The notes: generated by a model from the letters alone, not told the origin. DNA of 12,502 nt from Deltaproteobacteria bacterium (GCA_030698575.1 JAUYMQ010000496.1:1-12502); one strand, 5' to 3'. Shown: positions 3,718 to 10,228, counted from the first letter of the stretch. Numbers and translations: made by a program.

Positions 3718-4056
3718 TGCGGGATCTCTCCTCCTCTGTTCCACTCGGCGATGCGGCGCCGGCCGCGGGGGGACCCCAAGCTATCACAACGGGCGGGCCG
3801 CGCCCCCGCAGGATTCCCACAGGCGCCACCGGAACCTGGCGGATGGCCTCCGGGCGCTCGAGGCCGAGAAATTCAGGCCGACCTCGTCTGCTTCTACCTT
3901 CCGTCTGCAGTCTCAGTCGGGGAGCGGATGGACATCCTGGACCACCCGGTCGAGGTGAATATGATCGGCGCCTCCCCCGGCTGACGGCCAGGAGGCTTCA
4001 GGTCCGGGCGGGGCTCACCGATAGGGAGGGCTCGGGCGGGGGTCGTGACAATCCGG

Positions 4057-4085
4057 TTGACAACCCCACTTTCCGGGCCTATTGT
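4057..4085 (+). promoter_or_regulatory. Strong sigma70-like promoter in the gene-free stretch
   Basis: TTGACA (4057-4062) is a perfect -35 consensus; 17 bases later comes TATTGT (4080-4085), matching TATAAT at 4 of 6. Transcription would start near 4091-4093. No convincing start codon with a ribosome site follows, and the DHH-like gene is about 950 bases away, so the product may be a non-coding RNA or a very long leader. Confidence 0.55.
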
Positions 4086-4090
4086 GGGCG

Positions 4091-4610
4091 AAGCATCAGC
4101 GCGGGTACCAGAAAGCGCAGCAGATTCAAGGGATTATTCCCTCCGGCAAATGTTCGGAGGCAGATTCAGTTCCTGAGCCGCCGAAGGCCCCGCCATGGAG
4201 GATGGTGGCCGAAATCGGCGGGCAGTCCGGGAATAAGGGGATCGGCGGGGCCGAGAAGGAGCCCGCCGGTCGCAGACAGGAGGAGGTTCATCCCGCACGG
4301 CTGGCGCACGGACTCGACGGTTCCCCGGGGATCATCCCGAGGAGAGAGTCCCGAGGCCGGCATGAATGCGCGACGGCTCGATCATTCGGTTGCATGCAGG
4401 CGGGTGCATCGGGAAGGGCTGGCGCGGAGTCGGGATCAAGCGGGACGGCTTCCTCTCGCATGGCTGGGAATTCTACGCCGGACGGCGCCTTGACTGTAGG
4501 GACCGCGCGATAGCGCGACCCGGAGGGAGACCCCGAAAGGGCTCCCGCGGGCAGCCCGGGGCACCGGAAGGCGAAAGCGGCGGTTATGCCGCGGCGAGAC
4601 AGTTCAATTC
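4091..4610 (+). ncRNA. Candidate structured non-coding RNA, family unknown
   Basis: Downstream of the promoter at 4057-4085 several paired elements follow on the plus strand: CCTCCG/CGGAGG (4140-4145 with 4155-4160); a long-range 8-bp pair CGGCGGGC/GCCCGCCG (4216-4223 with 4261-4268) enclosing TCGGC/GCCGA (4242-4246 with 4250-4254); GGACTC/GAGTCC (4310-4315 with 4346-4351); CGCGC-GATA-GCGCG (4504-4517); GGGAG plus CCC-GAAA-GGG plus CTCCC with a two-base bulge (4525-4546); and GCGGC/GCCGC (4577-4581 with 4588-4592). Two hairpins have four-base GNNA loops, one of them a true GNRA (GAAA). I find no signature of RNase P RNA, tmRNA, 6S or SRP RNA. The 3' end is arbitrary, since no intrinsic terminator is evident. 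GC-rich DNA forms chance hairpins, so this is tentative. Confidence 0.3.
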
Positions 4611-4664
4611 GTAGACTCGGACGAACCCTGAAGGCTTCAAGCTCCATCCTCGAAGCGGTCCGGA

Positions 4665-4682
4665 AGGCCGGCCAGGCCGGCC
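4665..4682. repeat. Tandem 9-bp repeat
   Basis: AGGCCGGCC occurs twice in direct succession (4665-4673 and 4674-4682). Each copy contains the 8-bp palindrome GGCCGGCC. It lies between the candidate RNA and the DHH-like gene. Confidence 0.8.
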
Positions 4683-4821
4683 GGCTGTTCGGCGGGGCAG
4701 GTGTGGTTTGCCTGCCGTACGCCGTTGCGCTCCGAGAGGGTTTGTTCGTCGGTGTGCCGGTTTAGAGATTGCGCCGGCGGTACCGGGTCTGACGACTTCT
4801 CGCCTGTCCAGTTCCCTTCCA

Positions 4822-4837
4822 GCGATAAATTTATTGC
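4822..4837. promoter_or_regulatory. AT-rich near-palindrome upstream of the DHH-like gene
   Basis: GCGATAAATTTATTGC is a 16-bp inverted repeat with one mismatched pair (G with T), centred on ATAAATTTAT. It is the most AT-rich block in this stretch and resembles a dimeric repressor or activator site, about 207 bases before the ATG at 5044. It could also form part of a promoter, but I see no matching -35 at the right distance. Confidence 0.35.
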
Positions 4838-5043
4838 GGCTTTGCCGGATCGGCGCCTTGCCAATTCACGGGCGCCGCCCCCCCCGATCCTTCTCACCAA
4901 ACACAAACCGCGTTCGCGCCGAGGCGGCTCAAGCCGCCATCGCCAGGCCGGCGGAGCACGCTTCATAGCGGCTTCGCGGCCGATAGGCACCGGCGCACGG
5001 GCCCCCTTCGGGGCGCTCGACGAGACGCTCCAGAAAGGAAGTC

Positions 5044-7854
5044 ATGGCTGCAACAACAAGGAACAGTGGAGGGGGAACGAGCGGCGGATCGAAGGGACGA
5101 GGTGGCGCTTCGCGCTCGCGTGGCCGCCGGGGTGGCACACGACGCCGCCGGCCGGCCGGGCAGGAAAGCGGACCGCCGCAGAAGTTCGAGCCGGATCGCG
5201 ACGCGCGGACCGAGCTTCTCCAGGAGCAGCTCGAAGCCGAATTTGAGGGTTCCCCGGACTACGGGGATCCGCTCGACCCCGAGGAGGCTTCGGCCGACGA
5301 CATCGCGGCGGAGCTTTCGCGATCACGACGCGAGGAGAATGAAACAGCGCCCGACGACCAGAGCGCCTTCGAGGATACGTCCGAGGCGGTCGAGTTCGGC
5401 ATCGACGGCGCGCGGGGTGGATTCCCCGACGAGGAGGGGGAAGACGCCGCTCCTTCGGCGGGCGACTTCGTCCATGAATCCGGAGAATCGACGCGGCCGG
5501 GGTCGACCTTCAGAGCGCGGGAGACCGGGCAAGACGCGCGCGGTAGAGATTCTTCAGCAGACCGCGTCGAGGCCCCGGTCAGCGATCGCAGCGGGGAAGG
5601 GCGGGATCGCCTCTCCCGGCTTTGGAATGTTCTCATTCGCCCGCGCGCGTTTCCGCTGGGGGATCTTGTGCGGGAAGAGGGAGGGGCGCCAGGTTCCGAC
5701 AGGTGGCTGTTCGCCACGGGCAAGACGGCCGACGGACAGGTCGCTGCGGTGGTGGCCACACCCAACGTCGATTCCAATTTGCTCACCGAGGGACTGCTCT
5801 TCCTGACCCAGCTCTCCAGGTCGAAGGGCGCGATCAAGCATCTGTTTCTCTGCGCCCCCTATTTCGAGGAAGAGCAGCGCAAGACCGCCTACCTGGTCGA
5901 TCCAAAGAAGGTGCGCCTGCGGCTCGTGAGGGTCCCCTCCGTGGACGAGGGAACAGGGTCGTCGCGCATCGTCGAGACGCTGCGCCCGGAGACGCGCGAC
6001 ACCAGCCGCACGTTCGAGGAGATACTCTCCGAAGTACCGGGTCCGAAAACGCGGAACCTTCTCTTCCGATTCAAGGAGGTCGCCGAGGGGTCGCTCGTGG
6101 ACAGCGGCGGCGAGGGTGTGGTCTGCCGCGGCCGGAAGATCTATTTCCGGATGCGAGGCGAGGATCTGATCGTCGCGCGCCCCCGTGACAACACGGTGCT
6201 ACTCGAGATTCTCTATCCGCGTGGCCGGACGTTGCGGCTCTCCGAGAAAAACTTCGACCAGACCCTTTCGCGAGTCAGGGAGTGCTTCGAGGCGGCGCGA
6301 AAGAGCCCCAACCTGCCGAGCCGTGAAGGTGGATTCCGGCTTGCGGTGCGGGAAGCGCTGGAGACTAGGGAGAACGGCCTCATCCCGCTCGACGCCGAGG
6401 TGAGCGTGGGGCCGGGCAGGCTTCGCATCGACGTGCTGGCGGCCCGGAACGACGGCTCGCCTGCCGCGGTGCAGATTCGCGCCCGCCTGTCGCCGGAGGA
6501 TTTTGAGCGCAGCTTGCTCGCCTTCACGGCGCTTCGGGAGCAGGGGACCCTGCTGAAGAAGCTCCTTGGTGATCGTGGCGGGCTGCTCAACGCCGCGGGG
6601 GATGCCGAGCTCTGCTTCGTCTCGCTGAACGTGCACGAAGGGCTGCCAGCCATCGCGGAACTTCTCGTTCCGCGGGTCACCTTCTTCCGCGTTACGCCCG
6701 AGCGGCGCTGGTGGGAGGGGACGCTGAAGCTGACCGGACCCGGCCAGGCCATCCAGGCGGCGCCGAGCGCCCCTGCAGCGCAACAGTCCGCGGTCCAGCA
6801 GGCACCGGCGCCCCCGGTCCGGACACGCCCTGAACGGCCGAGCTTCAAGATCGAGGGGAAGAATCCGGCCGTTATCGCGAGCCATTACGACAGGGACGGA
6901 GTGGTAGGGAACATCGTCCTCTCGCGGGCTGTTCCGAACGTGGTGGCCCACCGCTTCATGAGCAGCGAGGACCTCATCATTTTCTTCTTCACGCCCGAGG
7001 TCCAGGCAACGCTGCCGGAGATCTACGATCTCTTCCTGACCGATCTCCGTTTCAGGCCCAGCACCCGCCTGTCACCTGAAGTGAAAGAGGCCTTCGTCGA
7101 GAATCTCCGGAACTTCAAGGGGAACATCTACTGGATCGATCACGTCTACTGGCAGGATTTCGATCGCCGGGAGATTGAGGGCGCCATCGGAAAGAACAAC
7201 CTCGTGATATCGCCCCGGGAACGAACCGCCGGCCAGGCTGTCATGAAGGCATTGCGGGTTCGGGACGATTTTTCGTCACAGCTGGTCGAGATGGTGCTCG
7301 GCAAGCTTGCTGACGATCCCCAGAAGGCCTGGGGGAAAGACTGGATCAACATCATCGACTACCTGCGGAACGATCTCGATCGAATCGAATCGGCGATGAA
7401 GCCGCTGTACGAGGGGCGGCCCGAGGAGATCGACGAATCACTGCGGGACGAGGGGCTGCGGAAAGAGGGCGAGGCGGAGGCCTACGTCGCGAGCCGCGAC
7501 TTCCGCGTCGTGATCTTCGGTACCTACAAGCTGGTCGTGGTGGATCTTCCGGAGAAGCAGAGCTTCAACTACACCAGCGTGACTCAGAAGGTGCGCGAGC
7601 GTTACCGCGCGCAGCTCTCGATCACGAGCTTTGGCAACTCCGAGACCATCATCATTGCCAATTCGTTCTCGAACCGGCAGGTGGTCAACATGATCCAGGT
7701 CAAGGATCACCTGACGCGGAAATTTGATTGGCTGAAGCCCGTCCAGGGGCACGAGAACGTGATCACACTGAAGGTGGAGGGGCTCCTCGAGAACAAGGAG
7801 CGTTTAGATCAGGCTCTGAACGAGCTGGTCAGGAACCGCTCGCTCTTCACCTGA
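5044..7854 (+). CDS. Large multidomain protein with C-terminal DHH-phosphoesterase-like domain
   Basis: 936 residues. Residues 1-40 are Gly/Arg/Ser-rich and basic, with RGG-like pieces; 41-190 are acidic and low in complexity. Residues 193-300 and 330-565 look folded and alternate strands and helices; 431-500 (GRLRIDVLA at 458-466, AVQIRA at 475-480) faintly recalls a PD-(D/E)XK nuclease with Q477/R479 in place of E-x-K. A Pro/Ala/Gln linker (566-600) precedes a DHH-type region: HYDRDG (614-619), an LTD motif with D667, IDHVYW (698-703) where the third triad residue is Val, and D772. GNSETIIIAN (864-873) sits where a C-terminal substrate-binding subdomain would have its GGGH motif. DHH enzymes hydrolyse phosphodiesters in short RNA, single-stranded DNA or cyclic dinucleotides with metal help. 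Start: AAAGGAAG ends two bases before the ATG at 5044. The substrate is unknown; a nucleic-acid or nucleotide role is inference. Confidence 0.8.
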   Translation: MAATTRNSGGGTSGGSKGRGGASRSRGRRGGTRRRRPAGQESGPPQKFEPDRDARTELLQEQLEAEFEGSPDYGDPLDPEEASADDIAAELSRSRREENETAPDDQSAFEDTSEAVEFGIDGARGGFPDEEGEDAAPSAGDFVHESGESTRPGSTFRARETGQDARGRDSSADRVEAPVSDRSGEGRDRLSRLWNVLIRPRAFPLGDLVREEGGAPGSDRWLFATGKTADGQVAAVVATPNVDSNLLTEGLLFLTQLSRSKGAIKHLFLCAPYFEEEQRKTAYLVDPKKVRLRLVRVPSVDEGTGSSRIVETLRPETRDTSRTFEEILSEVPGPKTRNLLFRFKEVAEGSLVDSGGEGVVCRGRKIYFRMRGEDLIVARPRDNTVLLEILYPRGRTLRLSEKNFDQTLSRVRECFEAARKSPNLPSREGGFRLAVREALETRENGLIPLDAEVSVGPGRLRIDVLAARNDGSPAAVQIRARLSPEDFERSLLAFTALREQGTLLKKLLGDRGGLLNAAGDAELCFVSLNVHEGLPAIAELLVPRVTFFRVTPERRWWEGTLKLTGPGQAIQAAPSAPAAQQSAVQQAPAPPVRTRPERPSFKIEGKNPAVIASHYDRDGVVGNIVLSRAVPNVVAHRFMSSEDLIIFFFTPEVQATLPEIYDLFLTDLRFRPSTRLSPEVKEAFVENLRNFKGNIYWIDHVYWQDFDRREIEGAIGKNNLVISPRERTAGQAVMKALRVRDDFSSQLVEMVLGKLADDPQKAWGKDWINIIDYLRNDLDRIESAMKPLYEGRPEEIDESLRDEGLRKEGEAEAYVASRDFRVVIFGTYKLVVVDLPEKQSFNYTSVTQKVRERYRAQLSITSFGNSETIIIANSFSNRQVVNMIQVKDHLTRKFDWLKPVQGHENVITLKVEGLLENKERLDQALNELVRNRSLFT

Positions 7855-9817: not shown

Positions 9818-10228
9818 TCATTTCGGGTCGGTGGTGATGGACAGCCGGAGGCCTTGTCCGCCGCGCTGTCGGCCACCGCGCGATCCGCGACCGCCTGCGG
9901 TGCGGGGTGTGAAGGCGATGCGCGCCTCGATGTCTATCTCGAAGTCCTTCAGGAAGCGCGCGCCTACCTTGTTGACGTCGAGGTCGCGCACGGCCTTGCC
10001 TATCTCGGCGGCGATGGCTTCGAAGAATTCCTTCTTCCCGCGCTCGGCCTGGCTGAGCACGGCGTCGACGGCCTCCCGCGTGAGCTTCATGTCGCGGGTT
10101 GCGCGGCGGAGAGTCTCCTCCGCCATGAATACGCCTCCGAGCGAGAGCACCAGCATCGACTTGGCGACGTCAGGCAACCGGCCGAGGAGCGATTTTTCAG
10201 CCTCGCGCTTTCGTTCTGCCATGGCCAT
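9818..10228 (-). CDS. Small helical protein with Gly/Arg-rich tail, unknown function
   Basis: I do not recognise a family with certainty. The 136 residues comprise a charged start, a short hydrophobic helix (about 24-36, KSMLVLSLGGVFM), long amphipathic helical stretches (37-95) and a Gly/Arg/Gln-rich segment GGRGSRGGRQRGGQG (112-126). The helical part is reminiscent of phasin-like or other lipid- or granule-associated proteins, but this is impression only. The ATG at 10228 follows GGGGG three bases away and GGAGG twelve bases away; an ATG at 10222 is an equally good start. Its gene converges with the Nudix gene (36 bases between ends) and diverges from queE. Amino-acid composition and coding-like frame support a real gene. 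Confidence 0.7.
   Translation of the reverse strand: MAMAERKREAEKSLLGRLPDVAKSMLVLSLGGVFMAEETLRRATRDMKLTREAVDAVLSQAERGKKEFFEAIAAEIGKAVRDLDVNKVGARFLKDFEIDIEARIAFTPRTAGGRGSRGGRQRGGQGLRLSITTDPK

Follow-up and report, generated by a model that had tools for sequence, protein, structure and literature searches.

A divergent, partly disarmed DHH/DHHA1 module in a bacterial fusion protein seen once, and its ComEC-linked relatives

The locus and the fusion gene

The window, by which we mean the whole 12,502-base stretch of DNA analysed here, is contig C632 of a draft genome of 4.13 Mb in 653 contigs. Its central feature is a complete ORF encoding a 936-residue protein (Table 1), which we take as one gene because a plausible ribosome-binding site precedes it and its GC3 is of coding type over its entire length (0.72–0.83 throughout, with similar values in the neighbouring genes). 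The gene lies between a LOG-type lysine-decarboxylase-like gene and an FmdB-like gene; GreA, NUDIX, and QueE-like radical-SAM genes are also close by. No ComEC, ComEA, or metallo-beta-lactamase (MBL) gene was found beside it within 12.5 kb, and the only DNA-uptake or DNA-repair neighbour on the 12.5-kb contig is an EEP-family gene. The interval of about 1.3 kb between the LOG-type and fusion genes (3745–5043) contains unsupported ORFs only, with no recognised gene, tRNA, or Rfam match. On the minus strand, between the NUDIX and QueE-like genes, lies a 136-residue ORF (9818–10228) with a Gly/Arg-rich tail and no Pfam match.

Table 1. Features of the fusion gene, and gene clusters that contain related DHH genes. 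Positions are those of the window unless a locus is named.
Feature	Position	Strand	Basis
Plausible ribosome-binding site, AAAGGA	5034..5039	+	sequence upstream of ATG
Complete ORF, 936-residue fusion protein	5044..7854	+	ORF calling
Low-complexity arm, residues 1–190, predicted disordered, 11% order-promoting residues	5044..5613	+	composition only
Residues 191–575, probably folded, no known family	5614..6768	+	composition, family searches
Ala/Pro/Gln linker, residues 576–605	6769..6858	+	composition
DHH domain, residues ~606–790	6859..7413	+	profile, AF2 model, fold matches, alignment
Motif I, HYDRDG (614–619)	6883..6900	+	alignment, sequence
Motif II, D667	7042..7044	+	alignment, sequence
Motif III, WIDHVYW (697–703), Val701 replaces general-base His	7132..7152	+	alignment; roles from PMC4846377
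Motif IV region, GKLADD (753–758), Gly753 aligned with catalytic Asp, D757/D758 close	7300..7317	+	alignment
WGKDW (763–767), signature common to bacterial ComEC-linked clade	7330..7344	+	alignment
DHHA1-type domain, residues ~817–936	7492..7851	+	AF2 model, fold matches, alignment
GNSE (864–867), not the GGGH motif, not conserved	7633..7644	+	alignment
VQGHE (900–904), GGGH equivalent, general-acid His903	7741..7755	+	alignment
ComEC, ComEA-like HhH, metallo-beta-lactamase, (PD-(D/E)XK), DHH cluster	L015:4113-10017, L017:3084-10011, L024:2-7182, L026:910-5492		

A sequence-only reading of this locus had placed the ORF and its motifs (HYDRDG, D667, IDHVYW at 698–703, D772, and GNSE) correctly, and had described the approximately 600 residues ahead of them as disordered and unplaced. 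This description fits about 190 of these residues as regards disorder, and about 385 as regards the lack of a family, but it does not extend to disorder in residues 191–575: order-promoting residues account for 32% of this region, against 36% of the DHH part and 11–13% of approximately residues 1–190 and the linker, and by this composition the region of about 385 residues is probably globular. Residues 191–575 have no match in Pfam, NCBIfam, PHROGs, PADLOC, PDB sequences, or viral contigs, and an internal duplication that we looked for in this middle region was not supported. By eye, the segment GRLRIDVL...AAVQIRARL (458–482) reads as a strand pair carrying an Asp and then Q-I-R, followed by a helix-like segment, and may recall a worn PD-(D/E)XK core; we note this as a lead by eye only. 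The protein has no transmembrane-like segment, its highest 19-residue hydropathy being 1.3, and -0.23 within residues 1–190.

The DHH/DHHA1 module and its active site

Residues 606–936 are a genuine, divergent bacterial DHH/DHHA1 module. Direct comparison of the window protein with Pfam, NCBIfam, PHROGs, PADLOC, and PDB sequences gave nothing significant, including no Pfam DHH match, and the homology emerges through its relatives. A profile HMM built from 15 of these, with the window protein excluded, matches residues 608–839 at E = 6.9e-18 (with Z set to 100,000), and a profile of archaeal and viral members only still matches at E = 2.9e-10; neither profile reported any of 50 shuffled versions of the protein or the reversed sequence. 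An AlphaFold2 (AF2) model based on a 12-sequence alignment has a pLDDT of 84 and a pTM of 0.80 and supersedes a single-sequence model with a pLDDT of 37. Compared with known structures, it is closest to the PAP phosphatase 8a8k and to PF0399 (both Z = 21.1), followed by archaeal RecJ-Cdc45 (20.9), RecJ bound to DNA (18.5), Cdc45 in several CMG structures (mostly 17–18), and NrnA-type proteins (about 15). The conserved alignment, the predicted fold, and the shuffle-controlled profile matches rule out a chance occurrence of the motifs. In the model, strand 1 is followed by H614, D616, and D618, the next strand by D667, and the strand formed by residues 695–699 ends at D699-H700. The DHH fold suggested by the sequence-only reading is thus present. 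Its metal ligands lie where strands 1, 3, and 4 of the model terminate, and judged from these positions they would be arranged as described for RecJ (PMC4846377).

Twelve positions are invariant in the 12-sequence alignment: H614, D616, D618, G619, D667, W697, D699, H700, W703, A729, G902, and H903. Their likely roles can be read from Deinococcus RecJ, in which metal B is held by D79 and D81 of motif I together with D135 of motif II, and metal A by D83, D135, H159, and D223 of motif IV; H160, hydrogen-bonded to D158, is the probable general base, and the general acid is probably H397 of motif VII (PMC4846377). The window protein keeps the counterparts of site B (H614, D616, and D667), three of those of site A (D618, D667, and H700), and the general acid (H903). 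Two other positions are replaced. The second His of the DHH tripeptide, the general base, is Val701, and the motif IV Asp is by alignment Gly753, with D757 and D758 four to five residues further on in a region where the model is at its weakest (pLDDT 59) and its confidence is low. In RecJ, replacement of H160, D158, or the metal ligands by Ala abolishes activity or nearly so, and the H160A mutant is inactive (PMC4846377). Val701 is encoded by GTC, from which a His codon differs at two bases, and we rejected a single-base sequencing error as its source.

The suggestion of a DHH offshoot with an altered third motif (DHV) that is possibly inactive is therefore backed by profile, fold, and motif evidence, to which the apparent loss of the motif IV Asp and the association of the relatives with genes for DNA uptake are new. 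GNSE, by contrast, had been mistaken for a changed GGGH motif; the equivalent is VQGHE, in which the glycines before GH are not retained and GH itself, with the catalytic His, is kept at 902–903. D772 is not conserved among the relatives in the 12-sequence alignment. The homology, fold, and residue inventory of the module are demonstrated by these data. By the test of an intact DHH tripeptide, the sequence would place the window protein outside every catalytic DHH family.

Several characterised DHH proteins offer points of comparison. With the single-strand exonucleases RecJ and archaeal RecJ (GAN/HAN), the window protein shares the DHH and DHHA1 fold over the whole module (Z of about 15–21) as well as motifs I and II, the initial His of the DHH tripeptide, and the general-acid His of GH. 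It differs from RecJ in having no general-base His and, by alignment, no Asp at motif IV, in its low identity (about 8–15% in structural alignments), and in having disordered and family-less N-terminal regions in place of the RecJ domains. The archaeal PAP phosphatase MtPAPP (8a8k) and NrnA resemble it in their two-domain fold, module size, and motifs I and II, but both keep the two DHH His and the motif IV Asp (PMC10322725, PMC9757072) and, unlike the window fusion, are stand-alone enzymes. Placement of the module at the C-terminus has its own parallel. In GdpP-type c-di-AMP phosphodiesterases, DHH/DHHA1 likewise forms the C-terminus of a larger protein, whereas the window protein has no transmembrane, PAS, or GGDEF part recognised by Pfam or NCBIfam.

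Relatives and ComEC-linked gene clusters

The fusion architecture is seen once. Direct searches of GTDB contigs, IMG/VR, phages, and plasmids gave no relative of the whole fusion, these contig scans being of a kind that detects close relatives only, and none occurs in 59 scattered genomes or in 97 genomes from the phylum that holds the closest RpoB (72%), a comparison set that included no second genome from the window's own phylum. Relatives of the module were reached stepwise. Two stand-alone proteins (L004 and L005) from a small phylum with a similar RpoB are 21–25% identical to the C-terminal third; a profile from these led to L007 in another phylum, CSSED10-310, and then to L009–L012 in that same phylum. 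An alignment of the L007 group led to ten members in archaea (Thermoproteota, Methanomethylicota, Desulfurococcales, and Culexarchaeum), in Auribacterota (Tritonobacter and Euphemobacter), in CSSED10-310, and in bins whose label is PVC group or uncultured bacterium. One and the same protein is found in L009 and L019, which identifies the L007 phylum as CSSED10-310. The alignment used for the last genome scan held one hand-altered row to widen the pattern; matches were confirmed by tblastn with the window sequence, and the altered row was left out of structure prediction, profiles, and tree. The relatives match the Pfam DHH family (PF01368) at 3.4e-9 to 5e-3, and two archaeal members match DHHA1 (PF02272) at 2.6e-4 and 7.3e-4, below the family cut-off. 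A viral contig, haloviral as judged from its sequence, encodes a canonical DHH protein (L013:4842-5969) with W-Y-D-H-H-x-W and GGGGH.

The bacterial relatives keep DHH and mostly have Asn where archaeal members have the motif IV Asp. Catalytic decay appears to be recurrent in the group, since different residues have been lost in different members: L004 and L005 are without the motif I residues, and L012 is without those of motifs I and II. In the tree, the window protein joins L004 and L005 with support of 97/96; the branches are long and this join may be false, and we are unsure of the exact place of the window protein, itself a long branch. The genes for the two degenerate stand-alone proteins (L004:1384-2364 and L005:1408-2280), in which motif I is lost and DHH kept, lie directly 3' of a gene for an Mpl-like murein peptide ligase.

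Some relatives occur in a recurring gene neighbourhood (Table 1). In two Auribacterota loci (L015 and L017), the order is ComEC, ComEA-like helix-hairpin-helix (HhH) ORFs, a separate metallo-beta-lactamase, and a membrane-anchored DHH protein, and the ComEC proteins match the Competence family at 7.7e-39 and 8.6e-31, with DUF4131; the large ORF ahead of the DHH gene recurs in L018 and L020, judged by ORF layout alone. In CSSED10-310 (L024 and L026), the order is ComEC (seen in L024 only), a double-HhH ComEA-like protein, a metallo-beta-lactamase, a PD-(D/E)XK nuclease, and again a membrane-anchored DHH protein. Its occurrence in two phyla suggests that this gene order serves DNA uptake or the processing of strands, and the cluster is possibly a DNA-uptake nuclease module. 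Among the papers searched, we found none that draws a pertinent link between DHH proteins and ComEC. Elsewhere, a 1175-residue UvrD/Rep-type helicase (L028:4737-8261) has a degenerate DHH/DHHA1 domain fused at its C-terminus. The window protein carries the signatures of the ComEC-linked clade, namely W-x-D-H-x-x-W (as WIDHVYW), W-G/D-x-x-W (as WGKDW), and the absence of an Asp at motif IV, and shares its GH. It differs from the ComEC-linked proteins in having no N-terminal membrane anchor and no competence neighbours, Val where they keep the final His of DHH, and an additional, large N-terminal half. The lack of competence neighbours and of a membrane segment sets it outside the setting of its relatives.

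Possible functions of the module

An otherwise RecJ-type site without its general base and, by alignment, without the Asp of motif IV, together with the long disordered arm, leads us to favour a role for the module as a non-cutting or very weakly cutting subunit that binds nucleic acid or serves as a scaffold, in the manner of RecJ4 or Cdc45, a proposal that we consider evenly poised between right and wrong. A nucleic-acid end or a nucleotide would be held between the DHH and DHHA1 domains, with cutting absent or very slow, much as the RecJ H160A mutant holds DNA uncut. The disordered N-terminus and the middle region would recruit partners, as happens for RecJ3 and aRNase J through RecJ4 in Haloferax, and the likeliest setting for such partners, going by the relatives, would be nuclease or DNA-processing machinery (ComEC, MBL, PD-(D/E)XK, or UvrD). 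Haloferax RecJ4 has lost its active-site residues, has a large intrinsically disordered region bearing an acidic patch, and is what RecJ3 and aRNase J depend on for their association (PMC10470531). It and eukaryotic Cdc45 are alike with the window protein in combining a DHH fold with lost active-site residues, RecJ4 being likened by its description and by its long disordered region, and Cdc45 by its match to the model at Z of 17–18; Cdc45, however, lacks three metal ligands (PMC4846377), whereas the window protein keeps most of its own. The decay of relatives through other residues, the ComEC, ComEA, MBL, and PD-(D/E)XK neighbours, and the UvrD fusion would also fit a scaffold. Several points would count against one: the metal and acid positions are mostly kept, more than free decay predicts; D757 or D758 might substitute for the motif IV Asp; the middle region could be a separate enzyme; the position of the window protein in the tree is insecure; and its gene has, the EEP-family gene aside, no neighbours for DNA uptake or repair on the contig.

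Because most of the metal ligands are kept, the chief competitor of this scaffold role is an activity that is residual or altered. The module could be a still-active DHH phosphoesterase, either an exonuclease acting on short RNA or single-stranded DNA or a pAp-type phosphatase, in which another group, such as D757/D758 or a bound water network, takes the place of both the general base and the Asp at motif IV. No variation is seen in motifs I and II, in the initial His of motif III, or in the GH general acid; an active PAP phosphatase and active RecJs are among the closest structural matches; and the ComEC-linked relatives also do without the motif IV Asp (mostly Asn) while keeping the rest, so that this loss alone may be tolerated. 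The window protein, however, has by alignment lost two positions together, each essential or nearly so in RecJ (PMC4846377), and we regard an active enzyme as rather unlikely.

A second alternative, that the window protein itself works in DNA-uptake machinery like its membrane-anchored relatives and acts on the incoming or the non-translocated strand, draws on the W-x-D-H-x-x-W and W-G-x-x-W signatures that it has in common with the clade found in ComEC, ComEA, MBL, (PD-(D/E)XK), and DHH clusters. It has neither a transmembrane-like segment nor a competence gene in the window, and the catalytic base is lost in the window protein only, which makes such a role very doubtful. It is equally improbable that the module is a nucleotide sensor, as the sequence-only reading proposed; its cleft would then bind pAp, a dinucleotide, or a cyclic dinucleotide and pass a signal on to the middle region. 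Matched DHH/DHHA1 structures do hold mononucleotides in the cleft (8a8k and 9r7o, both with AMP), and loss of the base with retention of binding residues would fit a sensor, but no signalling domain is recognised in the fusion by Pfam or NCBIfam, and the genes around the nearest relatives are for DNA uptake, not for signalling.

A scaffold derived from this fold would be of interest because DHH proteins are workhorses in DNA repair, RNA turnover, and replication (as Cdc45). If the scaffold reading is true, the window protein would carry, as a natural substitution, a change of the kind that inactivates RecJ while leaving it able to hold DNA, and would be a test case for how a nuclease fold becomes a scaffold. 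The novelty at the locus lies in a partly disarmed DHH/DHHA1 module within a single-instance architecture; more surprising in a wider sense is the ComEC-linked DHH clade. Degradation of the non-translocated strand is unsettled in some transformable bacteria, Helicobacter pylori lacking both the MBL domain and EndA (PMC12455585), and a DHH gene beside ComEC and MBL is a concrete candidate for this step. We also entertain, as an unlikely but wider proposal, that an undescribed DHH/DHHA1 clade takes part in bacterial DNA uptake along with ComEC, ComEA, a separate ComEC-type metallo-beta-lactamase, and sometimes a RecB-like nuclease, and that the window protein is a soluble, catalytically disarmed, single-strand scaffold offshoot of it, fused to two more modules.

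Elsewhere in the same draft genome, contig C550 (L003) carries a second, divergent RNA polymerase beta-like ORF of at least 1041 residues, which continues into a beta-prime-like part (NADFDGDQ); the normal RpoB is encoded separately on contig C48.
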